Shown here: one piece after another, positions 33,253 to 61,050 of the stretch
How positions within the stretch are numbered: position 1 is the first letter of the stretch
How the letters are laid out: every line of letters starts with the position of its first letter
Assembly: GCF_000238915.1 (NCBI RefSeq)
Contig: NZ_BAEG01000085.1
Location: forward strand, 62,001-126,000
Direction of reading: 5' to 3'
DNA: 64,000 bases
Source of the DNA: Arthrobacter globiformis NBRC 12137
GTDB lineage: Bacteria > Actinomycetota > Actinomycetes > Actinomycetales > Micrococcaceae
The notes under the pieces: generated by a model
Database searches by the model: none
The model's input: the letters and a program-made list of their open reading frames with translations, nothing else
Told to the model about the DNA's origin: nothing
Program-made: the position numbers and the translations under genes

Positions 33253-33465
33253 CTAAGACGGGCGACGCTGTCCGCGTTTGCGGTAAGTCGGGGAACGCGG
33301 GTCCCTTTGGTTACAGGGATCACACAAGCACCATTAGTAACATCAGCACCTTAAGTGTTAGAATGGGCCGCCTACATCGCCGCCGGCGTGATGGGACTCA
33401 AGACGGCGAAGACGTCAGCCACGAGCCGGCTCTCTGCCCGGAATTTGAAGGCTACGGAGTATCAC

Positions 33466-38029: not shown

Positions 38030-38113
38030 TATCCCAGACAGCAGTGGACGAAAGTGGACGTGCCGGCATCCGTCCGGCGACGGGGGCACCGGAAAGGCGG
38101 TAGGGTCGGGGCC

Positions 38114-39211
38114 CTAGAAAATGCTCCGCAACACAGGAACACGGCGGGCAGCAGCTGAGACCGCGAAGCTTCCCACCAGTGTGGCGGCGTAGGCGAGCAC
38201 CATGGCCTTGATCGACATCCCGGCCGCCACCGCCGGAAACTGCAGCCGGATGGCTTCGAAGATCACCAGGTGCACAAGAAAGACCCCGAAGGTTGCGTTC
38301 GACAGTACCGTCAGGGGCTTCCCTGCCCGCCTGACCCTCAGGTTCGAAGCCAGGGACAGGGTTACGACAAATACGCCCAGCGCCGCCAAGGCCACTCCGA
38401 CTCCAAGGTAGGAGACAGAAACCACGGCATCCAGAAGGCGAAGCTCTCCCTTGTTGCCGTAATGCCAAACCGTTCCGGCGATGATAGCGGCAGTTGCCAG
38501 GGCGGTCACGGTCAGTTTTGCCCCGGTGAGGCGGACGTTCCGCAGCGCGTACCCGGCCAGGAAGTAGCCCACGTACGGCATCCAGTGCGTCAGGAAGTTG
38601 AGCCGGACTGGACTCGCGACACCGAAAAGGCCAAGTATCCCGGGAAGCATGTAAAAGAGCAGCGACGCGGCAAGGAAAGCGGCAGCCGCCTTCGTGGCCC
38701 GGGGCTGACCGCCGCCGCGCAGGAATCCGGCGAGTACCGGGGCAACCCCGTACAGCCCCGCAATGAGCCAGAGAAAGTACAGTTGCGTGAACACCGAGCC
38801 GTCGACCAGCAACTGGAGTGTCCGCTGCGGAGTCAGGTCCTCGCCTCGCATCCAGATGCGCACTCCGACGAGGTAAATGAGGTTCCAGGCGACGAGCGCC
38901 GGAATGAGCCGCACTGCCCGGCGGCGGTAGAACAGGCCCGGCTGTTCCGCCACCACCCGGGAACCGAGGATGAGCGCCCCGGAAATCATCACAAAGACGG
39001 GAACGACCCAGATCCAGCTCACGTCCAGCACCACAGCGGTCCACCACGGCCGGCTCTCGCGCGGTGCCCGGCCCAGTACGTGGCCGAAGACGTGGATCGC
39101 GACCACCCCGCAGATGCTTACGACCCGAAGAATGTCCAGGCCGTATTCGCGCGTGGGCGACGATTCCGGAACGGGGGGCGCGGTATGGGCTGTACCGGAC
39201 AGGACCGGCAC
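38114..39211 (-). CDS. membrane acyltransferase, family 3
   Basis: A 365-residue integral membrane protein with about ten helices. EYGLDILRVVSICGVVAIHVFGH gives the conserved Arg/His, and WVVPVFVMISGALILG the second motif, as in OafA/ExoZ-type acyltransferases that add acetyl or succinyl groups to surface glycans. It has no SGNH domain. GTG start overlaps the DUF2304 stop by one base, so it is coupled to that gene and probably acts on the same glycan. Confidence 0.87.
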   Translation of the reverse strand: MPVLSGTAHTAPPVPESSPTREYGLDILRVVSICGVVAIHVFGHVLGRAPRESRPWWTAVVLDVSWIWVVPVFVMISGALILGSRVVAEQPGLFYRRRAVRLIPALVAWNLIYLVGVRIWMRGEDLTPQRTLQLLVDGSVFTQLYFLWLIAGLYGVAPVLAGFLRGGGQPRATKAAAAFLAASLLFYMLPGILGLFGVASPVRLNFLTHWMPYVGYFLAGYALRNVRLTGAKLTVTALATAAIIAGTVWHYGNKGELRLLDAVVSVSYLGVGVALAALGVFVVTLSLASNLRVRRAGKPLTVLSNATFGVFLVHLVIFEAIRLQFPAVAAGMSIKAMVLAYAATLVGSFAVSAAARRVPVLRSIF

Positions 39212-39621
39212 TACTGCCCTCCGTGCGCCGGAGGGGTCAGGCGCCGGTCAGGCTCCGCATCCTTGCGCTGCAGGGGACCGTCAACGCCGGGTGCCGGCGT
39301 TTCGTCCAAGGCAATCCGTCGGGAGAGTTTGGTAAGCGTGGATTCCATGTGCCGGAACCGCTGGTAGGTCGTTGCCATGAAAACCAGGAAACTCACGATG
39401 AGGCCATACAGCACCAGGTCCGTTCCGCGGCCGATGCCGAGCAACCGGGCCACGCGGGTCAGCAGTTCAGGGAAGAAGATCGAGAGCGCCGCCAGGAATG
39501 CGAAGAGAACCAGCATGATGCGGCGGATGGCAAGGTGCCTGGCATTGGAGCCGCCGCGCATCAGCGCCAGCGAGACGGTGATGACGGCAAGGACAAGTGC
39601 TACTTGGACAATGATCTGCAC
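39211..39621 (-). CDS. DUF2304 membrane protein
   Basis: A 136-residue protein with three hydrophobic helices (IIVQVALVLAVITVSLALM; IMLVLFAFLAALSIFFPELL; DLVLYGLIVSFLVFMATTY) and a charged C-terminal tail. DUF2304 proteins are usually encoded next to a dolichyl-phosphate-mannose-synthase-like GT2, as here (gap of four bases), and are thought to anchor it or act as its membrane partner. Confidence 0.9.
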   Translation of the reverse strand: MQIIVQVALVLAVITVSLALMRGGSNARHLAIRRIMLVLFAFLAALSIFFPELLTRVARLLGIGRGTDLVLYGLIVSFLVFMATTYQRFRHMESTLTKLSRRIALDETPAPGVDGPLQRKDAEPDRRLTPPAHGGQ

Positions 39622-39625
39622 AATT

Positions 39626-40291
39626 TCACCTAAAGAAGAGGTCAGCGACGATATTGACCGAGTTCAGCAACGACTGGCCTTTGGATTTCGAGTAGTCCGT
39701 GTAGATGATCTCGACCGGGTGCTCCACCCAGCGCGGATTCATCTCGGCAAGCTGATGGACCAGTTCGGAGGCGTGGGCCATCCGGTTCTGCTGCAGGTTG
39801 ATGCCGCGGGCAACGGTCGGGCTGAAGGCCCGCAGGCCGTTGTGGGCATCCGTCAGGGCCATGCCGGTGGACATCCGGGACTGCACCGCGGCCGTCCGCA
39901 GTACCAGCCGCTTCAGGGGCGAGAGCTTGGTGCGGTCGTCAAGGAACCTGGACCCGAGGACGACGTCGGCCTCGCCCGAACGGATCCGGTCGGCCATGGC
40001 CAGTGCGTCGACGACGCGGTGCTGGCCGTCGGCGTCGAAAGTAACGATGCAGTCCAATTGCGGGTCCTGCAGCGAATATTCGATGCCTGTCTGCAGCGCC
40101 GCACCCTGGCCCAGGTTCACGGGGTGCTGAACAACAACGGCCCCGGCCTGCCGTGCTATGTCCTGCGAGCCGTCGGTGCTGCCATCATCAACACAAACAA
40201 CGTGCGGAAATTCCTTCCGCAGCCCCTCGATGACGGTGCCGACGACGGACGCTTCGTTGTACATGGGTATGACTATCCAGGTTCGACTCAC
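39626..40291 (-). CDS. GT2 glycosyltransferase, polyprenyl-phosphate sugar synthase-like
   Basis: A 221-residue GT-A enzyme similar to DPM1-type synthases. WIVIPMYNEASVVGTVIEGL and VCVDDGSTDGSQDIA at the start, FDADGQH as the DxD metal motif, and GSRFLDD. It probably moves a sugar from a nucleotide onto polyprenyl phosphate, giving a lipid-linked donor for GT-C enzymes such as the DUF6541 protein at 50 kb. GTG start. Confidence 0.9.
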   Translation of the reverse strand: MSRTWIVIPMYNEASVVGTVIEGLRKEFPHVVCVDDGSTDGSQDIARQAGAVVVQHPVNLGQGAALQTGIEYSLQDPQLDCIVTFDADGQHRVVDALAMADRIRSGEADVVLGSRFLDDRTKLSPLKRLVLRTAAVQSRMSTGMALTDAHNGLRAFSPTVARGINLQQNRMAHASELVHQLAEMNPRWVEHPVEIIYTDYSKSKGQSLLNSVNIVADLFFR

Positions 40292-40349
40292 CCGTCAAGT
40301 ATTCCACAGGCGACATGCCATGGACTCATCGGCGGGACCTGACGGACGA

Positions 40350-40844
40350 TCACTTCCGCAGTGACTCCCGGAGGGCATGCAGCATGGCAATCGGGCCGTG
40401 CACCAGCCCAGCACCGGTGCTGTTGCGCAAATGCCAGACGGAGCGGTCCGCGGTGAGGTCAGCGGCAACAATGACATCCGAACTCCGGAACTTTTCCTGA
40501 AGATCCACCCGGCCGGACAGGGTGCGCGCGAGGCTCCTGGACTCAAGGTTGTCCCTGAGAAGCCGTCCGGCAACACCCACCGGGCCCGGTTTCCCTGCGG
40601 CGGCTGAAACCAGCGACGTGAACCGGCCGCCGCGGGCCTTGGCCAACGGCACCACCGTCAGGCGGTGGTCCCCGGCCGCGACGGTCGGGGCGCCGTCGTG
40701 CGCGTAGACGGCCGTCCCGGTCATCTGGCCGGCCTGCTGGCCCACCGCGCCCAAGGCACGGTTCCACAAATCATCAATGACGGCCTGCGGGTGGCTGCTG
40801 CGGCCGACGACGATACTTACGTGCAGCGGTTTGGCGGAAGTCAC
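40350..40844 (-). CDS. hypothetical protein in polysaccharide locus
   Basis: A 164-residue protein that I do not recognise. It is probably cytoplasmic alpha/beta, starting MTSAKPLHVSIVVGRSS, with FRSSDVIVAADLTADRSVWHL in the C-terminal half. No signal or membrane segment. The GTG overlaps the preceding glycosyltransferase by four bases (GTGA), so it is coupled to it and probably serves the same pathway. Confidence 0.7.
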   Translation of the reverse strand: MTSAKPLHVSIVVGRSSHPQAVIDDLWNRALGAVGQQAGQMTGTAVYAHDGAPTVAAGDHRLTVVPLAKARGGRFTSLVSAAAGKPGPVGVAGRLLRDNLESRSLARTLSGRVDLQEKFRSSDVIVAADLTADRSVWHLRNSTGAGLVHGPIAMLHALRESLRK

Positions 40845-42183
40845 GCCTGGCTCCTTTCTTCGGTGGCCGGCTGCGGCTTCGCCGCGCCGTACCCTGCAAT
40901 TCCCCGCAGCTCGGCGATGACCGGCTCGAGGATGGTGCTGCGGAGGAACTGCTGGCCGTAGGCCCAGGCAGCGGCCCAGCGCTTTTCGTCCGGTTCCTGC
41001 AGTGCCTGGGCGCAGTCACGCAGCGCATTCGCAATGCCTTCAGGGGTGAGCTCCTTCGCAGGGAACCACAGCGGATAATCCCGGAGGAGGTCCGTGGCTG
41101 CGTTTTCCATGTCGTGCACGGAGACAATGGGCAGACCGGTGGCCAGGTACTCCGTGGTCTTGCCGCCGGTCACGTATTTGCCGCTGGACAGCAGGAGTAT
41201 CAAGGCATCCATGCTGCCGTAGAAGCCGGCGACGTCGCGTTTGGAGATCGGCCCGTCGTAGCGGAGGCCGTTCTGGCGCCCGCTTCCAAAAATCTCGAGG
41301 ATCTCGGCGCCTGCCGCCCCGGAAGCGCTCAGCTTCCCGCGGAACACCGCCTCCGCCTGCGGGCTGTCCGGACCGAAGGCGGCACTCCACCCGTCGAGGA
41401 ATTCCTGCAGCGGCATGTTCACGTACTGCAGTGTGCCGAGATAGCCGAAGCTTGGGCGTTCCGCAGGCTGCACAGCCGGCCTGGCGTGGCCGGGCTGGGG
41501 GTCAAAGCCGTTGGCCACCACCCGCATCAGGTGGGCCGACTCGGGATAGCGGCGGGCGTATTCGTCCCTGATCTGGCTGTTGACGAACCAGATCTGAGCG
41601 GCCTCGTTCAGATATTCGGCTTCGCGCTTCCCCACGGCACTGTCCGGCGTGAAATCTTCGGCCCCGGAAATGGTGTTGAAAGCCCACGCGTCGCGGTAGT
41701 CCATAACGTACGGAACACCCTCAATCGCCCGGGCAACGCCGAATGCCACGTAGGGGCTGGCGGAGGCCATGACCAGGTCGACGGGCTTCTCCGCATGGAT
41801 GCTTCGGGCAGCCTCGCTGGCGGGCTTCAGCCACGCCCCGTGGAAGTCCTCGGGGAAGTTCCGCCGGCTGCGGCGGCGCAGGGCATCCTTCCACAGGTAG
41901 GGAGCCTCGATCCTGAACCGCGAGTACCGGCGCAGGTCTCCCTTGGCCGGTTCTTCCGCGCCGCCGTCGTCCACTGCGACAACCCGGATGTCCGGGTGAA
42001 CCGATTCCGCCAGCTTCTCATCCACTCCGGAAATCTGAGACCAGACCTGCGGGTCGACAGTGAGGACCGTGACGTCCCATCCGTCCTCGGCGAACGCATT
42101 GGCCACCGCGGTGCAGCGGTATACGGATGATGCGGTGCTGGGGGAAAGGCGAAAGCGATGTAGAGCAGGTGGGGCTTGGTCAC
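40841..42183 (-). pseudogene. GT4-like glycosyltransferase, frameshifted near its N-terminus
   Basis: The gene should start at GTG 42183 (MTKPHLLYIAFAFPP) and continue as STASSVYRCTAVANAFAEDGWDV. The two halves are in different frames: at 42140-42144 the minus strand has five C where six would restore one frame. The large downstream part (421 codons from GTG 42106) is intact and has the GT-B C-terminal domain (GKYVTGGKTTEYLATGLPIVSV). Without repair the FPP glycine/proline loop, part of the N-terminal Rossmann fold, is lost. Either a real mutation, a switchable tract, or an assembly error; see findings. Confidence 0.85.
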
Positions 42184-42398
42184 TCAGTGGCTCCTAAAAC
42201 CTTGGCGTAGCCTGCTTCCAGTTTGGCAGCAGGACCGATGCAGTGTGGTTGTTCCGGACGCAGGCTGGCCCATTCACTGCGTGGGCAGCACCAATGGGCC
42301 AGCCAGAGACTCGGCCATTGCCGGTCGCACCCATCCGGGCGAGTCCTCCGCGCCAGTTACCCAGTTTATGCCAACGCCCCCGCCCTACTGGCGGCGCG

Positions 42399-42404
42399 TA
42401 GTAT
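42399..42404 (+). promoter_or_regulatory. possible -10 element for the ABC flippase gene
   Basis: TAGTAT at 42399-42404, about 38 bases before the TTG start, in the 258-base divergent region between two polysaccharide genes. No clear -35. I saw nothing else in this region. Confidence 0.35.
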
Positions 42405-42441
42405 GGGGATGGATTCCGTCCCTTCCGTTCTGGAGTAATTC

Positions 42442-44250
42442 TTGAGACACCTGCGCCGTACCATGCGCGAACTGCTGCCCCTTCTGCCGTCGAATGCGCG
42501 GAGATTTCTCCTGCTCTTCGGCGTGCTGTCAGCTCTTCTGGCGCTGCTCGATGCAGGTGCCCTCGGCGTATTCGCCCTGGTTCTTAACCAAATCCTCAAG
42601 GGCGGAACCATGGTTCTGCCCGTCTTCGGCTCCGTAAGCCAGGAGTTCGGATTGGCGTTGCTCGTCGGGGCAGCGATGGTCATGATCCTCAAGTCCGTAC
42701 TCAGCATCTGGCTCCAGTGGGTTTCGACCCGACGGTTTGCCGAGTACGAGATGGAGATCGGAACCGTCCTGTTCGAAAGCTATATCCGCGCGCCGTGGAC
42801 GGAACGCATGAAGCGGTCCACCACCGAACTGGTGCGCATGATCGACGTCGGAATCGCCAATACCGTGTCCGGAGTCCTCTTCCCTGCGGTGATCCTGCCT
42901 GCCCAGGCGCTGACATTCGCTTCCGTCCTGGTGGTCCTCGTCGGCGCATCCTGGCAGACGGCGTTGGCCACCCTTGTTTACCTTGGCGCCATCGCCGCGT
43001 TCCTCTACCTCTGGCTTTCCAAGAAGTCCTACGAAGCCGGCAAGGTGAACCGCGACGCCGCCATGCGCATGTCCACGCTGGTTTCGGAAATGCTGGCAGC
43101 CTTGAAGGAAATCACGCTGCGGGACAAGGCCGACGAGGTCGGCGGCATCGTGATGCAAAGCCGCGAGCGGGCCGCACGTTCCCGGTCCAATATCCGCTTC
43201 ATGGGTTCGGTCCCCAAGTTCGTGATCGACATGGCGCTGATTGGCGGCTTCCTTCTTATCGGCACGGTCGGCTACCTCATCGGCGGTATCGAGGCTGCGA
43301 TGTCTTCTGTGGCGATCTTCGGCCTGGCCGGCTTCAAGATGGTCCCGGCCCTGACCCAGATGCAGTCCCAGCTGACGCTGGTCCAGTCAACGCTTCCCTA
43401 CACTGAGACGGTAATGGGCGACATCAAGGACGCCGCAGAATTCCGGAAGCATGCGGAAACGCTGGGCAGGACGCCCATCCGGGACGAGCCGAAGATGCTG
43501 GAGCTCAAGAACGTCGAGTTCACCTATCCCGGTGCCGGACAGCCCGCCGTCCAGAACATCAACCTGCAGTTGCCCATGGGCTCTTCCATTGGTGTGGTGG
43601 GACAGTCGGGTGCCGGCAAGTCCACCCTGATCGACATCTTCCTGGGCCTGCTGACGCCTTCAGCCGGAACCATGACCCTCGACGGCGTTCCGCTCGAGGA
43701 TGTGCTGGCCGACTGGCGCAAGCGCGTGGGCTACGTGCCGCAGGAAGTCGCCATCTTCGACGGCACCGTGGCGCAGAACGTCGCGCTGACCTGGGGCAGC
43801 GACATCGATGAGGACCGGGTACGCAGCGCATTGCAGCGCGCCCAGCTCCTGGAAACCATTGAATCCCGCAAGGACGGCATCAACGGCCGGGTTGGCGAAC
43901 GGGGGCTGGCGCTGTCCGGCGGCCAGCGCCAGCGGCTCGGAATAGCCCGTGCCCTGTACATGGATCCGCTCGTCCTGGTGCTCGACGAGGCAACGAGCGC
44001 ACTCGACACCGCCACCGAGGCGGCGGTAGCCCAGGCGATCAGTGAACTGCACGGCGAGATTACCGTCATCTCTGTGGCGCACCGCCTGTCGACCATCCGC
44101 AACAACGACCAGGTGTGCTTCATGAAGGAAGGCACCATCCTCGCCCAGGGCACCTTCGACGAGGTTGTCCGCGCGAACCCGGACTTTGCCCAGCAGGCAG
44201 CCCTGGCCGGACTGCACTCCCCCGCCGGAGCTACCGCCGCCGGCAGCTAG
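42442..44250 (+). CDS. ABC transporter, fused permease-ATPase (MsbA/PglK-like flippase)
   Basis: A 602-residue half-transporter. Six helices in residues 20-330, then an ATPase with Walker A GQSGAGKST, Q-loop GYVPQEV, signature LSGGQRQR, Walker B LVLVLDEATSALD and H-loop VAHR. PglK-like exporters flip lipid-linked oligosaccharides, which suits the glycosyltransferases around it. TTG start at 42442 has TGGAG six bases before it; an ATG at 42463 is the alternative. It is transcribed opposite to the frameshifted glycosyltransferase. Confidence 0.9.
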   Translation: MRHLRRTMRELLPLLPSNARRFLLLFGVLSALLALLDAGALGVFALVLNQILKGGTMVLPVFGSVSQEFGLALLVGAAMVMILKSVLSIWLQWVSTRRFAEYEMEIGTVLFESYIRAPWTERMKRSTTELVRMIDVGIANTVSGVLFPAVILPAQALTFASVLVVLVGASWQTALATLVYLGAIAAFLYLWLSKKSYEAGKVNRDAAMRMSTLVSEMLAALKEITLRDKADEVGGIVMQSRERAARSRSNIRFMGSVPKFVIDMALIGGFLLIGTVGYLIGGIEAAMSSVAIFGLAGFKMVPALTQMQSQLTLVQSTLPYTETVMGDIKDAAEFRKHAETLGRTPIRDEPKMLELKNVEFTYPGAGQPAVQNINLQLPMGSSIGVVGQSGAGKSTLIDIFLGLLTPSAGTMTLDGVPLEDVLADWRKRVGYVPQEVAIFDGTVAQNVALTWGSDIDEDRVRSALQRAQLLETIESRKDGINGRVGERGLALSGGQRQRLGIARALYMDPLVLVLDEATSALDTATEAAVAQAISELHGEITVISVAHRLSTIRNNDQVCFMKEGTILAQGTFDEVVRANPDFAQQAALAGLHSPAGATAAGS

Positions 44251-44271
44251 CGGAGCAACCGCGGCCGGCCC

Positions 44272-45276
44272 TTAACCCCGGCCGGCCGCGATTCCGGCAT
44301 ACAGCGCCGTCAGGCGCGGTATGAAGGCCGCCGCGTCATAGCGGGGCAGCGCCCACTCGCGTCCGCCCAGCCGGTTGGTGGCCGCAACGGGGTCATCCAG
44401 AGCCGCCACGACCTGCTCCACCACGTCCTCATCGGTTCCCTCCATCACCGGCGGCGTGGTGCCGTCGTCGGGCCGCGGAAGCCGGGATCCCAGGGCGGCG
44501 AGCGGCGCACCCATGCAGAGGGCCTCGAACTCGCTGGTGGCGAAGTTGTTGGTGGCCTGGCCAATGGTCATATGTGCCTGCGCCATGATCCGGTGGAAGT
44601 CATCCTGCGGCATCCGTTCCAGCAGGGTCACCCCGTTCTGGCGCGCAGCTTCGGCGCCGGGCCCCCAGTTCAGGCCGAGGATGTCTGCCCGGTTCCCTAC
44701 GGCGGCGCTGAGCTTTCGAGCCAGCTCCAGCTGCCGCTCCACACCCTTGTCGTCATCCCAGCGTGAGACGAAGAGGATGGAGGGCCGGCCGCCGGGGTGC
44801 CACGCGGGCAGCGCTGCGGCATCCACGAGTGCGGGGAGGAACTCGGCGTCGGGCCGGGCCCGGCGGGCATTCTCTGCGGTGTCGTTATTTGCGAAAAAGA
44901 CATGGGCCGCCCCGTCGATCGCCTGCTGGATCTCACCGTGGAACTGCGGATCCGCCCACTGCTTCCGGATATCGGTCCCGTGCAGGGTGAGCGCGTACGG
45001 CCGGCGCGGCATGCCGCGCTCCCGAAGCAGCCGTGCGCTGGTTCCGTAGTGGACATGCACGACGTCAGCGGCACGGAGCCGGAGTGCCCGGCGCGCGACG
45101 AAGGGAACGAACCGCGCCCGGGCAAGGAGGGGGTTCCTCGGAGCAGCGGTCATGGGCCGGACCTGCTCCGGCGGCAGGTACGACCACTCGATGCCGGCCC
45201 GCGCCGCGGCCCGCACCATGTTGCGGGCCACGAAGGCACAGTCGTTGAACTGAAGAACCCTGGGTTCGGACCTCAA
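44272..45276 (-). CDS. glycosyltransferase, GT4-like
   Basis: A 334-residue GT-B enzyme. HVHYGTSARLL and YALTLHGTDIRKQW in the N-terminal domain; ILFVSRWDDDKGVERQLELA and the FATSEFEALCMGAPLAALG acceptor/donor segment in the C-terminal domain. TTG start at 45276, with AAGGGA upstream. It follows the next glycosyltransferase in the same direction, 39 bases downstream of its stop. Confidence 0.87.
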   Translation of the reverse strand: MRSEPRVLQFNDCAFVARNMVRAAARAGIEWSYLPPEQVRPMTAAPRNPLLARARFVPFVARRALRLRAADVVHVHYGTSARLLRERGMPRRPYALTLHGTDIRKQWADPQFHGEIQQAIDGAAHVFFANNDTAENARRARPDAEFLPALVDAAALPAWHPGGRPSILFVSRWDDDKGVERQLELARKLSAAVGNRADILGLNWGPGAEAARQNGVTLLERMPQDDFHRIMAQAHMTIGQATNNFATSEFEALCMGAPLAALGSRLPRPDDGTTPPVMEGTDEDVVEQVVAALDDPVAATNRLGGREWALPRYDAAAFIPRLTALYAGIAAGRG

Positions 45277-45315
45277 GAATTTCCCTTCGCCTGGCTCGTT
45301 GCAGTTGGTCGGTTG

Positions 45316-46437
45316 TCAGGCACGTGCCAACGCCGCCGTATAGGCACGGTCGAACAGCTCGCCGACGGCCACCGGTGAGAACCTCTCCCGGATGGGCCGC
45401 GCGATGTCCTCGGCGGGAACGCCCTTGAACGCATCCCTGGCGTCCAGTACCGCACGTCCCAGCGATTCCGGCGTCACGTCCTCCACCAGCCTGCTGTTGG
45501 ACGCGTCCGCGTAGTCGCTGAAGCCACCCACCCGGGTGGCAACCACGGCGCGGCCGGCAGCAAGGGCCTCCGCCGCGGACGTAAAGAAATTCTCCTGGGC
45601 CGTGGGAAGGAAGAAGAGATCGGCGGCCGACAGGTGCCGGGCCACCTCGGCGGGCCGGACCGAGCCAGCCAGCGTCACGTGGCCTCCCAGTCCGAGCTCC
45701 GCAACACGGGACTCCACCGCGGGCCGCAGCGGCCCATCCCCCACCCAGGTCAGATGGGCTTCCGTGCCGTGGTCCCTGAGCCAGGCGATGGTTTCAACCG
45801 CCTCCAGCGGCCGCTTCCTGGCAACCAGTCCTCCGACGGCGGCCAGCCGGAGCGGATTTCCGAATGATGCAGGAACGACGGCGTCCCGCCCCTTGACCAC
45901 GCACGGCACCACCATCGCGGCGCCCGGCCGCGCAAACCGCTGCATCTCCGTGGCCAGCTGCCCGGTCACGCCGGTGACCACATGCGGCAGCCGCAGAACC
46001 GCCCGGACTCCGGCCAGCTTTTCCCACAGCGGGGAAACACTCGCCGGGTTAACCACGCCGTTCCAGTGTTCCGTGTGCACCCACGCCCGTCCCTGGCCGG
46101 CAAGGGTCCGGGCGGCCCATGGCAGCATTGTGACGAGGATGGAGGAGAACGCCATGGTGTGGACGGCGTCCGCCCAGGCCATTTCCCGCGCCAGCCTCAG
46201 TGCCGCCTGCACGAGGGTGACGGGGCGTTTGGGATCGGCAGCAATGCGCCGCACCGGCGTTCCCTCCCACAGGCCGGACGCTTTCCCTGGCATGCCGAGC
46301 GCGCTTCCGAGCCTCACATGGACCACCCGCACGTCGTGTCCCCGGCCACGGATGGCTTCCACATGTTCGGCGTTGAAGGGCGCCTCGGTGGGGTTTTCGT
46401 CATGGGGGTACCACGTGGCAACTACCAGGATCTTCAT
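45316..46437 (-). CDS. glycosyltransferase, GT4
   Basis: A 373-residue GT-B enzyme: MKILVVATWYPHDENPTEAPF (N-terminal domain, WYP loop), WVHTEHWNGVVNP, LRLAAVGGLVARKRPLEAVE and FFLPTAQENFFTSAAEALAAGRAVVATRVGG, the last being the E-x7-E region. Starts 39 bases after the GT2 gene's stop. Donor and acceptor unknown. Confidence 0.9.
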   Translation of the reverse strand: MKILVVATWYPHDENPTEAPFNAEHVEAIRGRGHDVRVVHVRLGSALGMPGKASGLWEGTPVRRIAADPKRPVTLVQAALRLAREMAWADAVHTMAFSSILVTMLPWAARTLAGQGRAWVHTEHWNGVVNPASVSPLWEKLAGVRAVLRLPHVVTGVTGQLATEMQRFARPGAAMVVPCVVKGRDAVVPASFGNPLRLAAVGGLVARKRPLEAVETIAWLRDHGTEAHLTWVGDGPLRPAVESRVAELGLGGHVTLAGSVRPAEVARHLSAADLFFLPTAQENFFTSAAEALAAGRAVVATRVGGFSDYADASNSRLVEDVTPESLGRAVLDARDAFKGVPAEDIARPIRERFSPVAVGELFDRAYTAALARA

Positions 46438-46476
46438 GTGTTCCTTCGACGTGTCTGGGAAATGTGCGGGTGGGGC

Positions 46477-47583
46477 CTAGACGAGGGCCGAGGCGCTCAT
46501 GAACCGGAAGGGGGCTTCCGGGTGCAGCACCCTGGTGAGGTCGCGGGGCACCCACGTCTGCGGGCTGACAAAGCGGCGACGGGCCAGTGCCAGCGACTTC
46601 ATGACTTCCACGTCTGATTCCTCGCGCGCGACGGCGTCGAGCAGTTTTCTGTCCGCCAGCGAGAGCGGACGGGCAGCATTCGGCGCCCCGAACAGCAGCT
46701 TCCGCAGCTCCTGGGCCATCTCCCGGGCGTCTTCCCTGTCCCAGGTTCCGGCTTCGGCGCGCAGCAGGACATGCCCGAAGACATGTACGCGGATGATCTT
46801 CGTGACGATCGCTTCCCTGGCCCGCGGCGGAAGCCCCGCAAACCATTCGGACAGCACGAGGTCGGTGGCGAAGGCCAGGTCCTCCGTGACCGGCCGCGGC
46901 GTGTGGGTCACCCGGACAGCGGCGTCGGCGTGCACCAGGTAGCGGGGCAGGCCCCGGCCGTAGCTGATCTTCGCTCCGGAAAACCACAGCTTCGCGGAAA
47001 AGGACTGGTCCTCCCCCGTGGCGTAGCGCGGCGGAAACGTGAGGCCGAGTTGCCGGACAAGCGAGAGTCGCAGGAGTCCCAGCGGCGCGGTGCGGTAGGT
47101 GAGGCGGTCCGCCACCGGGTCCAGGTGGCCGCGCCGGGTGCGCCGGAGCACGGGGGTGCGGATCGTGCCGCCCCCGGCATGCGCCATGGGGGCGATCAGG
47201 ACGTCGGATCCGTCCCGTTCCGCAGCCTCCACCCACTGCGCCAGGGCCCCGGGTTCGACGGAATCGTCGCTGCCCATGATGGCCACCCAGGTGCCGGTGG
47301 CTTTGGCGATACCGTGGTTGAAGGGGCCCGCGGGGCTTTTGATGCCGTCCACGTAGTGCAGGAAGCGGACCAGCCCCCGGTGCTCGGGGGCCACACGCTC
47401 CCGGATGGGCTCCACGTCCGTGTTGTGGCAGATCACGTTGATCCGCAGGCGCCGCGGCGCGCCGTCCGCCGCTGCCAGCCCGCCCTCCAGCAGGGACGCC
47501 ACGGCCCGCCCTACCGGCCGGTCCGGGGTGTGCACGGCAATTACCACGTCGAGCAGCACGGAGTCCTGTGTTTCGTTGTCCAC
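46477..47583 (-). CDS. glycosyltransferase, GT2
   Basis: A 368-residue GT-A enzyme. LLDVVIAVHTPDRPVGRAV, then SPAGPFNHGIAKATGTWVAIMGSDDSVEPG with SDD in place of DxD. The C-terminal part is helical, with no membrane segment. It resembles the frameshifted GT2 gene that starts divergently at 47639 (both share the pattern RSPAGPRN/KSPAGPFN), so the two are probably paralogues from a duplication. GTG start. Confidence 0.88.
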   Translation of the reverse strand: MDNETQDSVLLDVVIAVHTPDRPVGRAVASLLEGGLAAADGAPRRLRINVICHNTDVEPIRERVAPEHRGLVRFLHYVDGIKSPAGPFNHGIAKATGTWVAIMGSDDSVEPGALAQWVEAAERDGSDVLIAPMAHAGGGTIRTPVLRRTRRGHLDPVADRLTYRTAPLGLLRLSLVRQLGLTFPPRYATGEDQSFSAKLWFSGAKISYGRGLPRYLVHADAAVRVTHTPRPVTEDLAFATDLVLSEWFAGLPPRAREAIVTKIIRVHVFGHVLLRAEAGTWDREDAREMAQELRKLLFGAPNAARPLSLADRKLLDAVAREESDVEVMKSLALARRRFVSPQTWVPRDLTRVLHPEAPFRFMSASALV

Positions 47584-47638
47584 CCAGTAAGGTTATCGCG
47601 GGTCCAATGAAACCTTGCCGAGGAGCACGCACACCCCC

Positions 47639-48795
47639 ATGAGCCAAAGCATCGAAGTGGTCATTCCCGTCCATGATGTACAACGACCCTTCAAACGCGC
47701 CGTCGGCTCCGCCCTGGAACAGCGCGCCGAGCTGTCCCGGCTGGGCGTTGAACTCCGGGTGACAGTGGTACTGCACAACCTGGGTGCCGCCGCCGGGGAG
47801 GTCAGCAAGGGTCCCCAGGCCGGTTCTGAGTCTGCGGCCAGCACTGCGTTGGACGGCGTCACCTGGCTGACGTGCGACGACGGCGTCCGGTCCCCCGCCG
47901 GACCCCGGAACCGGGCGCTGGACGAAAGCACGGCAACGTTTCTGAGCTTCCTTGACTCGGATGACCATCTGGAACCCGGGTCGCTGGCCGCCTGGTGGAA
48001 GGCCGCCCAGCCGGACAGTGCTTCGGCAGTCATCGCACCGCTGCGCACGCCGGAGGGAACCATCCTGCCGGCCCCCGCATCCGGCCCTCTAAGCCCGCCG
48101 TCCTGGATGCCCTCAAGGACGGACTGGCCTACCGGAGCGTGCCGTACGGGCTGCTCCGCCGGTCAGTGCTCACAGACATCGGTTTCAGGTACGCGGAGGG
48201 GCTGCGGACCGGCGAGGACATCGAGGCCACCCTAAAGCTCTGGTTCCGCTCCGGCCCCGTCTGCTACCCCTATGGTTCACCCGCCTATCACCAGACCGAC
48301 GATTCCGGTGCCGGCCGCGTCACCAGCTCGCTCAGCAACCTGGCGGACGAATTCAGGTGGCTGGAACGGCTGCTCGGGTCCGAGTGGCTGCAGCAGGCCC
48401 AGGTCGCCGAGCGGCGCGCCGTGGCACTGAAGGTCCTGCGCGTCCACGGCATAGGCGCGCTGCTCCGCCGTGCCGGCGCGTCCGGCGTCCCGGACGATGC
48501 CCTGTGGAACGAGGCGGAACGCGCCTACTGGTCCGATATCTCCTCGCGGCTGTACGCCTTTGCCGGCGGCTCTCTGCCGGAACTGAGCCGCCGGGACGCG
48601 GAACTGACGCAGGCGGCCGCCGCGGCGGCCGATGTCCAGTCGCTGCGCACCGCCGTCGAACGCCACCGGGCGGCGGGCCGCCTGGGCGACCTTGTCCCGG
48701 CGAGCCCCGCGGCGATCCTGTCCCGGGACTCGGTGCTGCGGCATTACCTGACGGAACGGCTGCGCGCCCGGGCCGGCGTCTTCTCCCGGTCCTGA
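47639..48795 (+). pseudogene. GT2 glycosyltransferase, frameshifted in the middle
   Basis: The N-terminal half (MSQSIEVVIPVHDVQ; SPAGPRNRALDESTATFLSFLDSDDHLEPG) and C-terminal half (PAVLDALKDGLAYRSVPYGLLRRSVLTDIGFRYAEG) are in different frames. Five C at 48072-48076 need to be six to join them (TILPAP-RIRPSKPAV). The joined product would be about 385 residues and similar in plan to the GT2 at 46477-47583. ATG 47639 is preceded by GAGGAG. As it stands the protein would stop after about 198 residues with a scrambled tail. Confidence 0.85.
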
Positions 48796-48839
48796 TGGTG
48801 CGCAGGCCGTCCCGGGCGGAAATCTTCGCGGCCTGCAAC

Positions 48840-48855
48840 TAAACTGGAACCCATG
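48840..48855 (+). promoter_or_regulatory. -10 box for a probable leaderless epimerase transcript
   Basis: TAAACT at 48840-48845 is seven bases before the ATG at 48853; no GGAGG-type ribosome site intervenes (GGAACCC only). Confidence 0.5.
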
Positions 48856-49917
48856 CGAATTCTCAGCGTCGTTGGCGCACGTCCCCAGTTTGTGAAACTT
48901 GCGCCGATTGCGGCGGCCATGGAGGGCCAGGCGGAACACCTGATCGCCCACACGGGCCAGCACTATGACGAGCTCATGAGCGATGTGTTCTTCCGCGATC
49001 TCGGCATTCCCGCCCCCGACTTTAACCTTGGCGTGGGTTCAGGCAAGCACGGAGCCCAGACCGGTGCCATGCTGCACGGGCTGGAGGAAATCCTCGAACA
49101 GTCTGCCCCTGACTGCGTCCTCGTGTACGGTGACACCAACTCCACCCTCGCCGCGGCCATCGCCGCCATCAAGATGCACATCCCCGTTGCGCACCTCGAG
49201 GCGGGGCTGCGGTCCTTCAACCGCCGAATGCCCGAAGAGCACAACCGCGTCCTGACCGACCACAGCGCCGACCTCCTGCTGGCCCCCACGGAGGTGGCCG
49301 TCAAGCACCTCGCCACCGAGGGCCTCGCCGAGAGGACCGTCCTGGTGGGCGATGTCATGACGGACGTTCTCTTCAAGGTCCGCGACATGCTCGACGGCGG
49401 TGACCAGCCGCTGCCGGTCGACGCGGCACCGGGCGAATATTACGTCTGCACCATCCACCGTCCGGACAACACCGACTCCCCGGAACGCCTGGCCGCCATC
49501 GTCGGGTCCCTGGCCAGCCTGGAGAAGCCGGTATTCCTGCTGGCCCACCCCCGGCTCGTCAACCTTGCCGCCAAGCACGGCATTGAGCTGGAGCAGGGAG
49601 CGGTGCGTGTTGCGTCGCCGCTCGCCTACCCGCAGCTGGTCCACGCTGTCCGCAACAGCGCCGGCGTCATCACCGACTCCGGCGGACTGCAGAAGGAAGC
49701 TTTCCTGCTCCGGACCCCCTGCACGACGATTCGCCCTGAAACCGAATGGGTGGAGACCGTGGAACTCGGCTGGAACGTGCTGGTGAGCAAGGACCTGAGC
49801 ATCCTGGCCGACACGGTGCAGCGGCCGGCACCGGTGGCGACGGATGCCACCCCCTACGGCGACGGCCACGCCGCCGAACGTACCGTGGAAGCCCTGATTC
49901 AGGCTTTCGGAAGCTGA
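48853..49917 (+). CDS. wecB: non-hydrolysing UDP-N-acetylglucosamine 2-epimerase (WecB/WbpI family)
   Basis: A 354-residue epimerase. MRILSVVGARPQFVKLAPIA, HTGQHYD, VYGDTNSTLAAAIAAIK, HLEAGLRSFNRRMPEEHNR, HRPDNTD and TDSGGLQKEA are the family motifs for the catalytic and UDP-binding residues. The plain reaction is UDP-GlcNAc to UDP-ManNAc. Because wbpA, wbpB, wbpD and wbpE homologues lie 9-13 kb away, it may instead act like WbpI on UDP-GlcNAc3NAcA to give UDP-ManNAc3NAcA. Sequence alone does not decide. Confidence 0.92.
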   Translation: MRILSVVGARPQFVKLAPIAAAMEGQAEHLIAHTGQHYDELMSDVFFRDLGIPAPDFNLGVGSGKHGAQTGAMLHGLEEILEQSAPDCVLVYGDTNSTLAAAIAAIKMHIPVAHLEAGLRSFNRRMPEEHNRVLTDHSADLLLAPTEVAVKHLATEGLAERTVLVGDVMTDVLFKVRDMLDGGDQPLPVDAAPGEYYVCTIHRPDNTDSPERLAAIVGSLASLEKPVFLLAHPRLVNLAAKHGIELEQGAVRVASPLAYPQLVHAVRNSAGVITDSGGLQKEAFLLRTPCTTIRPETEWVETVELGWNVLVSKDLSILADTVQRPAPVATDATPYGDGHAAERTVEALIQAFGS

Positions 49918-49939
49918 CACACAGACCGCTTAACAACAG

Positions 49940-49990
49940 AGACCTCCGGAACAGGCGCCCACAGGACGCCCCGTTCCGGAGGTCTTTTGC
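49940..49990. terminator. terminator after the epimerase gene
   Basis: AGACCTCCGGAAC (49940-49952) pairs with GTTCCGGAGGTCT (49973-49985), with inner GGCGCC/GGACGCC pairing, followed by TTTGC. Between convergent genes. Confidence 0.85.
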
Positions 49991-50004
49991 TTGTGGTGTT
50001 GCCC

Positions 50005-51999
50005 CTAGCCGCAGGCCACCACTTTGAACAGTTTGGCGTTGCCTTGCTGGTCCACGAGCTGCACGGCTCCCGAGGACGCGAGGTTCTGCAGCCCGGGATA
50101 CGTCTTGCTCTCCGGATGGTTCAGGAGGTACTGCGTGCCAAAGTCGAGCGCATAAGACACTTTGGTTTCCCGTACGGCATCACAAACTGCGGGTGAGGTG
50201 TCTGCCTTGGCGAGCGATTCCGCCACGACCCGCATGCTCTTGGTCTCCCGCTGGCCCATGTGGAATTCCAGTACCTTCCGGTCCGCGAAAGCATAGGCTA
50301 GCGCCCCGCCGTTCCAGGGATTCACCGCAATGACCGCATCCGCCGGAACTTCCGAACCGAGGCGGGCCAAAAGGGCGTACTCGTCGGAGGAGACAATCGA
50401 GTCCTTCGTGTCCCGTTCGAAGAAGTACTGGCTGGACGCAACGTATCCGCGGACCGGGCCTGTCTGGGTAGCCCAGCCAAGAGCGAGGCAGACCGCCAAA
50501 ATACCGGCGAAACCCGCAACGCCGCCCAGCCGCATCCCGGCCCGCGGCACCTTGAGCGCCAGGACGCCGCCGGCCGCTTTCACGGTGTCGGCCGTTGCCA
50601 GCACACCCAGGGCCGCAAGCACCACAGCGAAGATGGGAAGGTAGGCCGCGAGGCGGTACGTGTCCTGGTACCAGGTGCCCGTGAAGAACGCCCGGGCCCA
50701 GCCGGCCGCAAATCCGGCGTCCACCACGTAAAGGAACCCGGCGACGAGGTAGCACCCCAGCAGCCAGAGCTGTGTGCGCCGGCGGATGATCCGGGCCACG
50801 CCAATGAGGGCCAGCACCGAGATGAGGAGTGTGGCGTCCGTTTTCATGGGCCCGTTCGCAATCACTTCGCCGATGGCACCGGGAACGGTCTGGTGCGGGG
50901 TCCAGCCGTTGTATGGCGCCGGACGAAGTTTCTGCCACGCAACCACTACAGCAACCGCACCTGCCACCGAGGCCAGGGCCACCACGGCAAATTTCCGCGC
51001 TGACGCCCTGGTACGGATCATCTCCCTGACATAGAGGAAGAGCCGGGCCAGGACCACCGGAATGCTGAAGGCGAGAAGCGCGTTGACAGCGCTCATGTGG
51101 GACAGTGCCAGCCCGGGAACTGCCAGCAGCAGGACAAGCCACGCCCGCAGCGGAGGTTCACGCAGCGTCGGGGACAGTCGGCAGACGAAAATCATTGCTG
51201 CGACGCCGGCGGGCAATGCGCTGACGGAGAGCAGGTTGGGGAACAGCGGGCCCCACACCAGCAGCAGGTAGGGGAAGGCAAGGAAGCCCGCCGACATGAC
51301 CCCTGCCGCCATCAGGCCGACCGGACGCGGGCCGATGACAACGCGGGTCAGGAAAACCACGGAAATAGGCCAGATTACCGCCGAGGCAACGAGGTTGATG
51401 ACGTTGACTGATACGGGAACGGACGCGCCGGTCAGCTGCGAGACGAGGGCGGCCAGGGAATGCCACACGGCAGGGTACACGGAGGACAGGCCTCCGGTGC
51501 CGCCGGCCATGCTGCCGAGGTTCAGGGTGGAGGCGTTGCCGGTGTCCAGGATGAAGCGGACGGCGTTCAGGTGAAAGACGTTGTCATAACGCTGGGAGAT
51601 GTTGTCCGGCTCGCCCACCAGCTGGATGACCCGTCGGGCGATGAGCAGCGCACCGACGGCAACGCCGATGGCACCGGCGGCAAGGGTCGGCCAGCCGTCG
51701 CCCTGCTGAACTGCACGCTGCACATCCGTGGCCTCCTGGCGCTGCCACGGCCGGCGCGTCACCGCCCATGCTGCCGCGGACGCCAGGACGGCCGTCACGA
51801 GCACGACGCCGATCCCCCACTCCACACGGACGAACGGTGCCAGCACAGCGCCAACACCGGCGATGGACAGGGACAGCACGGGCGCGAGTCCCAGCAGGCT
51901 GGTCCGCCGGAACCCGAGAGACCAGGCAAGCGCAGCACCGGGAAGGAGCACCACGGCCACTGCCGCTAGCAGGGCCGGCAGCGAGGACAGCCAGGACAA
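50005..51999 (-). CDS. DUF6541 membrane protein, probable GT-C glycosyltransferase
   Basis: A 664-residue polytopic protein with about 13 helices and a C-terminal extracellular domain (from about residue 540). After the fourth helix it has EPDNISQRYDNVFHLNAVRF, an acidic loop like those of GT-C enzymes that use polyprenyl-phosphate sugars. Members of this family in actinobacteria are otherwise uncharacterised. TTG start at 51999 has GGAGGAAATT before it. It sits beside the Wzm/Wzt export genes and far upstream of the GT2-DUF2304 pair that may supply its donor. Confidence 0.8.
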   Translation of the reverse strand: MSWLSSLPALLAAVAVVLLPGAALAWSLGFRRTSLLGLAPVLSLSIAGVGAVLAPFVRVEWGIGVVLVTAVLASAAAWAVTRRPWQRQEATDVQRAVQQGDGWPTLAAGAIGVAVGALLIARRVIQLVGEPDNISQRYDNVFHLNAVRFILDTGNASTLNLGSMAGGTGGLSSVYPAVWHSLAALVSQLTGASVPVSVNVINLVASAVIWPISVVFLTRVVIGPRPVGLMAAGVMSAGFLAFPYLLLVWGPLFPNLLSVSALPAGVAAMIFVCRLSPTLREPPLRAWLVLLLAVPGLALSHMSAVNALLAFSIPVVLARLFLYVREMIRTRASARKFAVVALASVAGAVAVVVAWQKLRPAPYNGWTPHQTVPGAIGEVIANGPMKTDATLLISVLALIGVARIIRRRTQLWLLGCYLVAGFLYVVDAGFAAGWARAFFTGTWYQDTYRLAAYLPIFAVVLAALGVLATADTVKAAGGVLALKVPRAGMRLGGVAGFAGILAVCLALGWATQTGPVRGYVASSQYFFERDTKDSIVSSDEYALLARLGSEVPADAVIAVNPWNGGALAYAFADRKVLEFHMGQRETKSMRVVAESLAKADTSPAVCDAVRETKVSYALDFGTQYLLNHPESKTYPGLQNLASSGAVQLVDQQGNAKLFKVVACG

Positions 52000-52055
52000 A
52001 TTTCCTCCAAGAGTGATTACGGTGGGGCCGGGTTCGGCTGGGACCGTTGCAGCGG

Positions 52056-52089
52056 TGAAGCCTACGGCAGCAGTTGAAGCTTACGGCAG
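52056..52089. repeat. short direct repeat in the gap between wzt and the DUF6541 gene
   Basis: TGAAGCCTACGGCAG (52056-52070) and TGAAGCTTACGGCAG (52075-52089) differ at one base and are 19 bp apart. No function is evident. Confidence 0.6.
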
Positions 52090-52116
52090 TGCAGGTAACG
52101 CTTTCGGGTCAGGACG

Positions 52117-52845
52117 CTAGTTGCCGCGGAGCCGGCTGATCACGTCGCCCACCGGGCCGTCCATGATGACCCGCCCGTGTTCGAGGAGTACTCCGCGTTC
52201 GCAGACATGGGCAACCAGGTCCAGGTCGTGGCTGACCACCACCAGCGTCTTGCCGGCCGCCGCGAGTTCCTTGATCTTGGCGAGGCACTTCTTCTGGAAC
52301 GGTTCGTCACCCACGGCGAGAATTTCATCGACCAGGAAAACATCGGGGTCGGTGTGGACTGCCACCGAGAACGCCAGCCGGAGGTACATTCCCGACGAAT
52401 AAAACTTGACCTCGGTGTCGATGAACTCGCCGATCTCGGCAAATTCGACGATGGAGTCGAACTTTTCCTTGATCTGCGTCTCGGTCATCCCGAGGATCGC
52501 GCCATTGAGGAAGACGTTGTCACGCCCCGAAAGGTCAGGGTGGAAGCCGGCACCGACTTCGATCAGGCCGGCAACCCGTCCGCCGGTGCGGACTGTGCCG
52601 GAATCGGGAAGCATGACGCCGGAGATGTGCTTCAGCAGCGTTGACTTTCCGGAGCCGTTCAGTCCCAGGAGTGCCACCGTCTCGCCGTGTTCGACGTCGA
52701 TGGACAGGTCCCGGAGGGCATGGAACTTCTTCGACAGATCACCTTTGCGGCCCCGCAGGAGCCACACGAGGGCTTCCTTGAGTGACCGGGTATGTCGCAG
52801 GACAAACTGCTTGTTGATGTTGCGGATTTCAATTGCGGTGGTCAA
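52117..52845 (-). CDS. wzt: polysaccharide ABC exporter ATPase (Wzt-like)
   Basis: A 242-residue ABC ATPase: Walker A GLNGSGKST, signature-like YSSGMYLRLAFS, Walker B VFLVDEILAVGDEPFQKK and VVSHD, all characteristic of the ABC-2 lipopolysaccharide/teichoic acid/O-antigen exporters (Wzt, TagH, RfbE). No C-terminal carbohydrate-binding domain. TTG start three bases after wzm. Works with Wzm to export lipid-linked polymer, here probably the galactan made by GlfT2. Confidence 0.93.
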   Translation of the reverse strand: MTTAIEIRNINKQFVLRHTRSLKEALVWLLRGRKGDLSKKFHALRDLSIDVEHGETVALLGLNGSGKSTLLKHISGVMLPDSGTVRTGGRVAGLIEVGAGFHPDLSGRDNVFLNGAILGMTETQIKEKFDSIVEFAEIGEFIDTEVKFYSSGMYLRLAFSVAVHTDPDVFLVDEILAVGDEPFQKKCLAKIKELAAAGKTLVVVSHDLDLVAHVCERGVLLEHGRVIMDGPVGDVISRLRGN

Positions 52846-52848
52846 GAC

Positions 52849-53750
52849 TCACAGCTCCTGTGCGAAGCGGCCCTCGAGCCGGCGGAAAGTCCACTGGCCG
52901 AGGAAAAGGATGGCTAGCGAGACGAGCAGCCCCACGGGTACCCATACCGTGACCAGATTGGGCGGGCTTCCCTCAGCCCCTGCCGTGGTGGGCAGCCAGA
53001 AGGCATGGTGGAAACACTCCACGGCAATCGTGATCGGGTTGAGCTGATAAACGGCGAACCAGGCTTCGCCTGCCTTGTCCAGCACCATCCGCCAGGAGTA
53101 CAGCACCGGGGCTACCCAGGTGGCGATCAGAAGGATCAGGTCAACCAGGTTCTCCGAATCGCGGAAGTACACGTTGACGGACCCAAAAAAGAGGCCCAGA
53201 CCCGTGGCAAGCAGCGCGATCATGACAAAGCCGGCGACGGCGGTGACCGCCTCCAGAGGACCGGGGCGCCAGCCGGTGAACAGGCTGGCCACCACGAGGA
53301 CAAACAGCTGCGGAAAGAAATGGACCGCCGAGACCCACACCGAGGAAACCGGAAACAATTCCCTCGGCAGGTAGATCTTGTTGATCAGCCCGCTGTTGTT
53401 GACGATCGACCGGGTCGCCGTGCTCAGGGACTCCGTGAAGAAGTTCACCAGGATGATCCCGGAAAACAGGTAGACCGCGTAGTTGGGCAGTCCTCCCCTG
53501 TTGGTCGGGCTCTGCTCCAGTCCAAGGAAAACTCCGAGGGCAATGTAGAAGGCGATGAACTGGACCCCGGGCTTGACGTAGGTCCACAGCAGTCCAAGGA
53601 CCGAACCCCGGTACCTGATTCTGAGCTCCTTGCGGACAAGCAGCTTCAGGAGGAACCGGGAACGGAACACGTCAACGAGCCCGTTCCCGGTTCCCGGCGC
53701 CACCAGCGCCCGGCCGGAGTCCTGCTGGGTCGGAGAGGTGCGTCCGTTTG

Positions 53751-53754
<4 letters not shown>
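52849..53754 (-). CDS. wzm: polysaccharide ABC exporter permease (Wzm-like)
   Basis: A 301-residue ABC-2 membrane protein: LLVRKELRIRYRGSVLGLLWTYVKPGVQF at the start, six helices, and YFRDSENLVDLILLIATWVAPVLYS. GTG start overlaps glfT2 stop by four bases (GTGA). In mycobacteria the homologous pair exports galactan across the membrane. Confidence 0.93.
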
Positions 53755-57010
<3,256 letters not shown>

Positions 57011-57126
57011 CTAGACTACCCGAAGTTAAAAAGCGTCCCGCATTCCGGGGCGGCCGCCGCATGCGGCCGAATGCGGTTTCACCCGCGGCGTGGGCGGCCA
57101 TCCCGGCGTTGCTCCGACGCCGCAAA

Positions 57127-58305
57127 CTATGCCCCGGACGGAACGGTGGCCAGCACTTCCGCGGCGGCATGCTGCCCTGACGTTGCCAGCGACGCATGCT
57201 GCAGCACCCAGCCGGCTCTGGCATCCCGGCCGTCCGCGTTGCCTCCGGATTTTTCACCGGCCGCCGCACGGCACATGGCTGCGGCGACGCTGTCCACGTC
57301 GTATCCGGCCGCCTCGCCAAGTCCGTTGCCCGAGACGAGCGCCGCGCCCTCCCCCGTTCCTGCGAAGACAACGGGCGTCCCGCAGCCGGCGGCGGCATAG
57401 ATCTTGGTGGGCTTGGCAAAGTCGTAACCCTGGCCCGGTTTGATGCTGACCAGGGCTGCTGCTGCGCCCCGGATCCAGCGGGCCGCGTCGGCGGGGGGAA
57501 TGACCCCGCCGAACGTCACGCGGCCCGGGGCTGTTTTCTCTGCAAGCTCCCTGAGGTGGGACTCGTCGGCACCCTGGCCGAAGAAACGGATGCTGGCGCC
57601 GGGGTGCTGGGCGAGCACGGCGGGCAGCGCACGGATGAAGATGTCGGCACCCTGCCACTCGGACATGGTTCCGGTGTACACGAAGTACGGTCCATCGGAC
57701 CCAGCGGTCTCCCCCTCGGGCCCGAACACCGAGGTGTCGATCCCGTTGCCGACCACGGTGACGCGGTTCCGCGGGACGCCGAACTGCTCGACCTTTTGGG
57801 CCACGGCATCCGAGATGGCGATGACCCTGGCCGCCCTGCGCAGCGCAAAGCCTTCGGCAGCCCGCATCACGCGGATGACGACGCCGGGCACGTCCGTGGC
57901 GGACAAAGCCTCAGTCCAGATATCGGCCGCGTAGTAGACAAAAGGCCTGCGCCGCAGGGCCGATACCAGCGCCACGACCACGCCGGTGGTCGGCGGCGGC
58001 TCCGAGACCACCACGTCGGCCCGCGAAAACAGCAGCCGAAAAAAGGCTGGAACGTCAAAGCTCATGTACTGCACATAGCCGCGCACATTGCCCCCGGCGT
58101 CCCGCAGCACGGGCCACCGGGAGACCTTATAACGGGGCTTGAACTCCGGCGATCCCTTGGGCGGCCTGGTCGTGACGACGCTGACGTCGGCGCCCTTGGC
58201 CGCCAGGCCGTCCACTAGTGCTTTCAGCCTGAACGAGGCCGCACCCACTTCGGGGGTGAAGAGCCGGGTTGCCACGGTGACCCTGACAGGTCGGTTTTCA
58301 CTCAC
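57127..58305 (-). CDS. glycosyltransferase, GT4 (WbuB-like)
   Basis: A 392-residue GT-B enzyme. RVTVATRLFTPEVGAASFRLKALVDGLAAKGADV at the start, FVYYAADIWTEALSATDV, YFVYTGTMSEWQGADIFIRAL and PTKIYAAAGCGTPVVFAG later. Enzymes of this type often add FucNAc- or ManNAc3NAcA-like sugars to lipid-linked intermediates. GTG at 58305 overlaps the wbpB-like stop by four bases (GTGA), so it is coupled to UDP-diacetamido-sugar synthesis. This makes it the best candidate for the transferase using that sugar. Confidence 0.88.
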   Translation of the reverse strand: MSENRPVRVTVATRLFTPEVGAASFRLKALVDGLAAKGADVSVVTTRPPKGSPEFKPRYKVSRWPVLRDAGGNVRGYVQYMSFDVPAFFRLLFSRADVVVSEPPPTTGVVVALVSALRRRPFVYYAADIWTEALSATDVPGVVIRVMRAAEGFALRRAARVIAISDAVAQKVEQFGVPRNRVTVVGNGIDTSVFGPEGETAGSDGPYFVYTGTMSEWQGADIFIRALPAVLAQHPGASIRFFGQGADESHLRELAEKTAPGRVTFGGVIPPADAARWIRGAAAALVSIKPGQGYDFAKPTKIYAAAGCGTPVVFAGTGEGAALVSGNGLGEAAGYDVDSVAAAMCRAAAGEKSGGNADGRDARAGWVLQHASLATSGQHAAAEVLATVPSGA

Positions 58306-60984: not shown

Positions 60985-61004
60985 ACTTTGGTTCCTCTCA
61001 GAAG

Positions 61005-61030
61005 TGCCGCTGCGGCCGGCCGCAGCGGCA
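61005..61030. repeat. 26-bp perfect inverted repeat between wbpA and wbpD
   Basis: TGCCGCTGCGGCC (61005-61017) is immediately followed by its reverse complement (61018-61030). It would form a very stable RNA hairpin with almost no loop in the gap between two genes that otherwise look like one operon. No U tract follows, so partial attenuation or message stabilisation are possible. Confidence 0.75.
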
Positions 61031-61050
61031 AAGGCTGCCGCGAAGCGCTC

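Follow-up and report, generated by a model that had tools for sequence, protein, structure and literature searches.

A frame change at a C5 run in a glycosyltransferase gene of Arthrobacter globiformis NBRC 12137: under-call in the draft, private mutation or phase variation?

In the draft genome of A. globiformis NBRC 12137, two glycosyltransferase genes lying close together change reading frame at runs of five C. Do these frame changes exist in the living strain and, if they do, are they reversible switches, recent losses or sites at which two frames are joined during expression? A sequence-only reading of the 64,000-nucleotide stretch analysed here (the window) had described both breaks as either assembly errors or biologically meaningful, and had leaned towards phase variation. 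In the analysis reported below, an assembly error fits best and a private mutation comes second, and the lean towards phase variation finds no support. The features concerned are the following.

47639-48795, + strand: broken GT2-type gene (family-2-type glycosyltransferase), in two frames that change at a C5 run
47639..48235, + strand: its 5' frame, carrying the DSDD motif; in the correct frame up to about residue 145 and out of frame from there to the stop
48072..48076, + strand: C5 run, the frame-change site; the tract is one base longer in the relative G113
48076..48795, + strand: its 3' frame, within ORF 47995-48795; 239 codons plus stop, under purifying selection
40841..42183, - strand: GT4-type glycosyltransferase gene broken near the N-terminus; the body (40841-42106) is open, and the first codons, starting with GTG 42181-42183, are read in a different frame
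42140..42144, - strand: companion break, a C5 run as read on the gene strand and G5 on +; the G113 tract has one more base and the gene is open there
46477..47583, - strand: open GT2 paralogue, divergently transcribed, sharing 33% identity with a portion of the broken gene's 3' half; family profile score 35.3
36878..62340, no single strand: surrounding locus, with several glycosyltransferases, ABC transporter genes, GlfT2-like, Glf, WecB-type epimerase, Gfo/Idh-type dehydrogenase, DegT-type aminotransferase, hexapeptide acetyltransferase and nucleotide-sugar dehydrogenase

The 5' frame of the GT2-type gene opens at ATG 47639, passes through the C5 run and meets a stop at 48235; from 48076 the second frame is used, through to 48795. 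Three approaches confirmed that the frame changes at the run. When the two halves were searched separately by tblastn against 7 relatives, one of which (G053) has its own copy broken elsewhere, the crossover fell between ILPAP and RIRPSKP, at the C run. An ab initio codon-usage model with frameshift states, for which 61 long ORFs served as training set and which was given no prior information on the break, called three frame changes in the window, at 48073-48075, 55778 and 60388; the last two are 4-nt gene overlaps, leaving 48073 as the sole non-overlap frame change. Moreover, in a 64-kb alignment the window is one base shorter than G113 at this run. The earlier proposal that one added C repairs the gene agrees with G113, in which the tract is one base longer and the gene is open.

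With its out-of-frame tail included, the 5' frame scores 22.7 bits against Pfam PF00535, for a cut-off of 23.3. Residues D106, D108 and D109 (numbering of the G113 orthologue), which we take to be a metal-binding motif of the DXD type, occur without exception in the 14 orthologue rows and also in the window's gene. These rows share 149 invariant residues, and 148 are kept across the two halves of the window's gene, the 149th being the junction codon, which was left out of both pieces. A truncated 5' product would retain the DSDD motif and lose 87 of the 149 invariant residues, for which reason it should be inactive.

To establish the ancestral frame we relied on the orthologues. The 14 rows comprise 10 genomes from a search of 206 genomes of the genus and 4 named Arthrobacter loci. 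In that search, 14 genomes (the source genome included) matched the 3' half at E <= 1e-30; the source genome, G053 (79% complete, its copy disrupted at other sites), G152 and G160 (both 38% identical) were left out of the rows, and so were matches at 29-37% identity. All 14 rows, representing 12 distinct proteins, have an uninterrupted frame across the junction, and a run of at least 5 C occupies the site in G113 only, the other rows having 4 C or fewer. G113 is the closest relative found, colinear with the window over 64 kb at 95.6% identity, and at both 48072 and 42140 its tract is one base longer and its gene open. Its use as a perfect yardstick was rejected, as, among genes called in both genomes, 10 of the 14 isolated single-base differences that shift the frame break the gene in G113, 9 of them by one base more in that genome; two break the source genome (48072 and contig position 244414) and two fall at gene ends. 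The 42140 break does not enter this tally, as it falls outside the called genes. A short way beyond the window, at contig position 126300, it is G113 that has the longer C run and a broken gene. Since G113 is itself often broken, the ancestral frame is decided by the orthologues and not by G113 alone.

Both halves of the gene remain under purifying selection. Compared with G113, dN/dS is 0.195 in the 5' part (9 synonymous and 5 nonsynonymous changes) and 0.063 in the 3' part (23 and 4); polarised with G028, the 3' part shows 7 synonymous and 2 nonsynonymous changes on the source branch and 9 and 1 on the G113 branch. For the body of the GT4-type gene dN/dS is likewise 0.063, with polarised counts of 14/5 on the source branch and 13/2 on the G113 branch. 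Thus, judged from these substitutions, neither broken gene shows a clear sign of decay, and the breaks would be either very young or absent from the cell. Decay of the whole locus was considered and rejected: in 10 other pieces, namely nine other locus genes and the body of the GT4-type gene, dN/dS against G113 ranges from 0 to 0.148, and the polarised synonymous and nonsynonymous counts for all of them together are 125/34 on the source branch and 136/27 on the G113 branch. Some polarised counts lean the opposite way: those of the gene at 45316 (14/9 on the source branch versus 9/2 on that of G113), of the aminotransferase (5/4 versus 6/0) and of the GT4 body given above.

The second break of the same type, which the sequence-only reading had placed in another glycosyltransferase gene nearby, is real: it is the G5 run at 42140-42144 in the GT4-type gene. 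It was found by comparison alone and was not called by the codon-usage model, because the N-terminal piece is short; similar breaks with short tails may therefore be missed elsewhere too. Consequently, the statement that no other long gene in the window is broken stands at the sensitivity of the model and of the comparison with G113, at which short-tail breaks may escape. Within called genes, the remaining length differences from G113 not divisible by three comprise two balanced groups, around 9.9 kb and 15.7 kb, one difference at 16159 and one at 53813. The last is in GlfT2, where two other relatives side with the window and not with G113. At 16159, in the gene 16141-17526 (- strand), the difference is of 37 bases at the very end of the gene, in a stretch that is nearly duplicated in G113.

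The gene content of 36878..62340 suggests that the locus makes a surface polysaccharide. The WecB-type epimerase, Gfo/Idh protein, DegT-type aminotransferase, hexapeptide acetyltransferase and nucleotide-sugar dehydrogenase lie in 48853-49917 and 58302-62340, and together they presumably look like the route by which a diacetamido uronic acid sugar is made; the best match of the Gfo/Idh protein is UDP-GlcNAc 3-dehydrogenase, below the cut-off of that profile. Adjoining the locus, an ORF of 1140 aa at 33355-36777 (+ strand) combines a glycoside hydrolase family 25 domain with FG-GAP repeats. At 42195-42298 (- strand) we observed a weak C-terminal remnant of a glycosyltransferase gene that is whole (321 aa) in G028. 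An older deletion upstream of 42.2 kb was discarded as a cause of the breaks: G113 has the same remnant, with no large length difference from the window there, and being common to G113 this loss probably predates both breaks and does not explain them.

Two breaks within 6 kb in one locus could be taken as a sign that the locus is special. By simple arithmetic, about 0.6 pairs within this distance are expected by chance from 11 breaks in 1.13 Mb (10 model calls plus 42140, found by comparison only), and about 0.03 pairs from the three known C/G-run breaks alone. The clustering is weak evidence, and it is weaker still because the window had been scanned before the locus was picked.

How far can the draft itself be trusted? 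The window is part of a 378-kb contig in a draft of 4.95 Mb and 124 contigs. The contigs go down to 106 bp, as would be expected if the assembler discarded pieces under 100 bp, a threshold used in older flow-based pipelines. Over 354,798 contig bases aligned with G113, taking runs with 4 identical bases on either side, all 1018 matched coding C/G runs that are 4 long in G113 and all 218 that are 5 long have the same length here, so the draft is not generally unreliable at homopolymers. Of the runs 6 long in G113, 4 of 6 are the same and two are shorter here, at 48072 and contig position 126300; the run at 42140, which the model counted as noncoding, is a third 6-long G113 run that is shorter here. 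As to the abundance of such tracts, 660 kb contain 782 coding C/G runs of length 5 and 38 of length 6. In the window CCCCC occurs 99 times and CCCCCC 9 times, against 379 and 115 expected from dinucleotide shuffles that ignore codon structure; the scarcity could reflect avoidance of slippery sites or codon structure only.

The codon-usage model called 10 non-overlap frame changes in 1.13 Mb of the source genome (5 + 5), 4 in 0.48 Mb of G028 (two of them in one gene) and 12 in 0.40 Mb of G113 (likewise with two in one gene). These counts leave out contigs under 3 kb, include 2 kb of filler in contig 41, and exclude as gene overlaps the calls with an upstream stop within 30 nt, a threshold of our own, which removed 29/34 and 18/23 calls in the source genome, 20/24 in G028 and 18/30 in G113. 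Breaks are therefore about as frequent in the source draft as in G028, the one further draft sampled, and ordinary pseudogenes can underlie such a rate. G113, a genome of two contigs, probably carries uncorrected indels, to judge from its 12 calls and from the single-base differences noted above.

Five of the 10 source-genome calls were compared with relatives: 48073, contig 41 position 244398 (with G113 only), and those in murA, a RibD-like and a glyoxalase-like gene, the last two named from reading their translations and not by profile search. The main murA is normally essential. In the source genome it is split in two frames (G000 contig C15:3627-4917; L134, L135), and in G113 and G028 it is one open frame of 441 residues; a murA-like paralogue of 515 or 511 residues is present in all three genomes. 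A real murA null is hard to reconcile with viability, assuming that the 515-aa paralogue cannot replace murA, and the split is probably an assembly error. It consists of a net two bases in a G-rich stretch and, like the one-base loss in the RibD-like gene, is not a simple long-run slip. In the glyoxalase-like gene the C run of the source genome has one base more than that of G113, so that C/G-run slips are neither confined to glycosyltransferases nor one-directional.

Taken together, these data favour, at a probability of roughly 0.5, a homopolymer under-call in the draft: the glycosyltransferase of the living strain would be intact and the frame change would exist in the assembly only, the error having presumably arisen in sequencing or assembly and not in the cell. 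The C5 run would be a one-base contraction, private to the assembly, of a C6 run otherwise found only in the closest relative G113. We counted in favour of an under-call the position of the change at a run, the 14 open orthologue rows, the 148 of 149 invariant residues kept, the lack of a sign of decay, the split murA and the other private indels; against it count the C/G4-5 runs that agree with G113, the break rate like that of G028, the paralogue caveat on murA, and the murA and RibD-like differences that are not simple slips. A C6 run arisen by chance, slipping either in the sequencer or in the cell, is the common root of this explanation and of the next, a very recent loss-of-function slippage private to the strain, which we regard as a serious though less probable candidate. 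In that case the half with the DSDD motif would be kept and the remainder lost, one sugar linkage of the polysaccharide would be missing, and laboratory passage or phage escape could have favoured the loss. It would agree with the break rate like that of G028 and with the fact that both breaks hit tracts of length 6 in G113, none of the 218 matched coding C/G5 runs having changed length. Slippage in the cell is also made credible by the repair genes: the source genome has one NucS match (G000 contig C41:14607-14966; L128) and no match to MutS_III or MutL-type (PF01119) families, in a search that found NucS, MutS and MutL families in 7, 11 and 11 of 14 control genomes, and NucS does not correct short indels (PMC8228993). 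In M. smegmatis, 78.74% of small indels lie in simple repeats such as homopolymers (PMC4938668); the same study gives insertions as 2.1 times as frequent as deletions, which counts against a private deletion, as does the suggestion that proofreading by the actinobacterial polymerase may itself remove most indels (PMC8228993). The same draft also splits murA and, with little sign of relaxed selection, a null mutation must be very young, twice in one pathway. A broader version, namely that in NucS-only actinobacteria chance C6 runs in surface-polysaccharide glycosyltransferase genes are transient, unconserved mutation hot spots giving rise to glycan variants again and again, two of these being captured in the present locus, seems to us doubtful.

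If slippage at the run were instead reversible, it would switch the glycosyltransferase on and off and vary the surface polysaccharide. In favour of such a switch count the pair of breaks in a single polysaccharide locus, the lack of a MutS/MutL match in the source genome and the precedent of a short C6/C7 run in bvgS of Bordetella pertussis (PMC1891110), and a repeat tract within the gene does set the frame (C5 here, longer and open in G113). However, unlike a contingency locus, the tract is not longer or commoner than composition predicts, C runs being scarcer than in dinucleotide shuffles and many equal runs lying in other genes, and it is not maintained in relatives, with at least 5 C in G113 alone among the 14 rows; a similar slip also occurs in a gene that is not a surface gene, the glyoxalase-like one. 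The assembly contained no second-allele contig of the tract (40 of 80 candidates scored in one search), which is weak evidence. A review withholds the term phase variation from a set of M. tuberculosis homopolymer indels without shown reversibility, and applies it elsewhere to glpK (PMC11868660). With a tract that is short, unconserved and not enriched, comparable breaks outside surface genes and no second allele in the assembly, we keep phase variation as improbable. Even less probable is that slippage of the ribosome or of RNA polymerase at the run yields some full-length enzyme from a gene that still functions. Purifying selection in both frames would be expected from it, and within the run a tRNA bound to CCC could shift back by one base and pair again, but the arrangement is absent from all 14 orthologue rows and, by eye, the run taken with the codon before it lacks the pattern of a classical tandem slippery heptamer; programmed frameshifting was rated low on these two grounds.

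The under-call thus remains our preferred explanation, and the locus carries a caution: two C-run breaks in one polysaccharide locus look like phase variation, in a draft that has comparable private breaks elsewhere, murA included. If sequencing reads bore the breaks out, the strain would represent a natural glycan mutant, in which homopolymer instability in bacteria without MutS/MutL could be studied as a test case.

Known systems resemble the locus in part; for Arthrobacter itself, nothing relevant on homopolymeric phase variation was found in the portion of the literature covered. Flow-based draft genomes are prone to homopolymer under-calls, that is, single-base length errors in G/C runs, which split conserved genes as seen here; the difference is that the matched C/G5 runs of the source draft agree with G113. 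The bvgS C6/C7 tract of Bordetella pertussis is likewise a short C run within a gene, where a one-base change truncates the protein; there, however, both lengths occurred in one mixed culture and were tied to a phenotype (PMC1891110), whereas here there is one assembly and no conserved tract. The homopolymer indels of Mycobacterium tuberculosis, such as those in glpK, are the actinobacterial parallel, frame-changing and located in short runs; in the review's account they affect multiple genes at high rates (PMC11868660), whereas here a single private event is seen in each gene.
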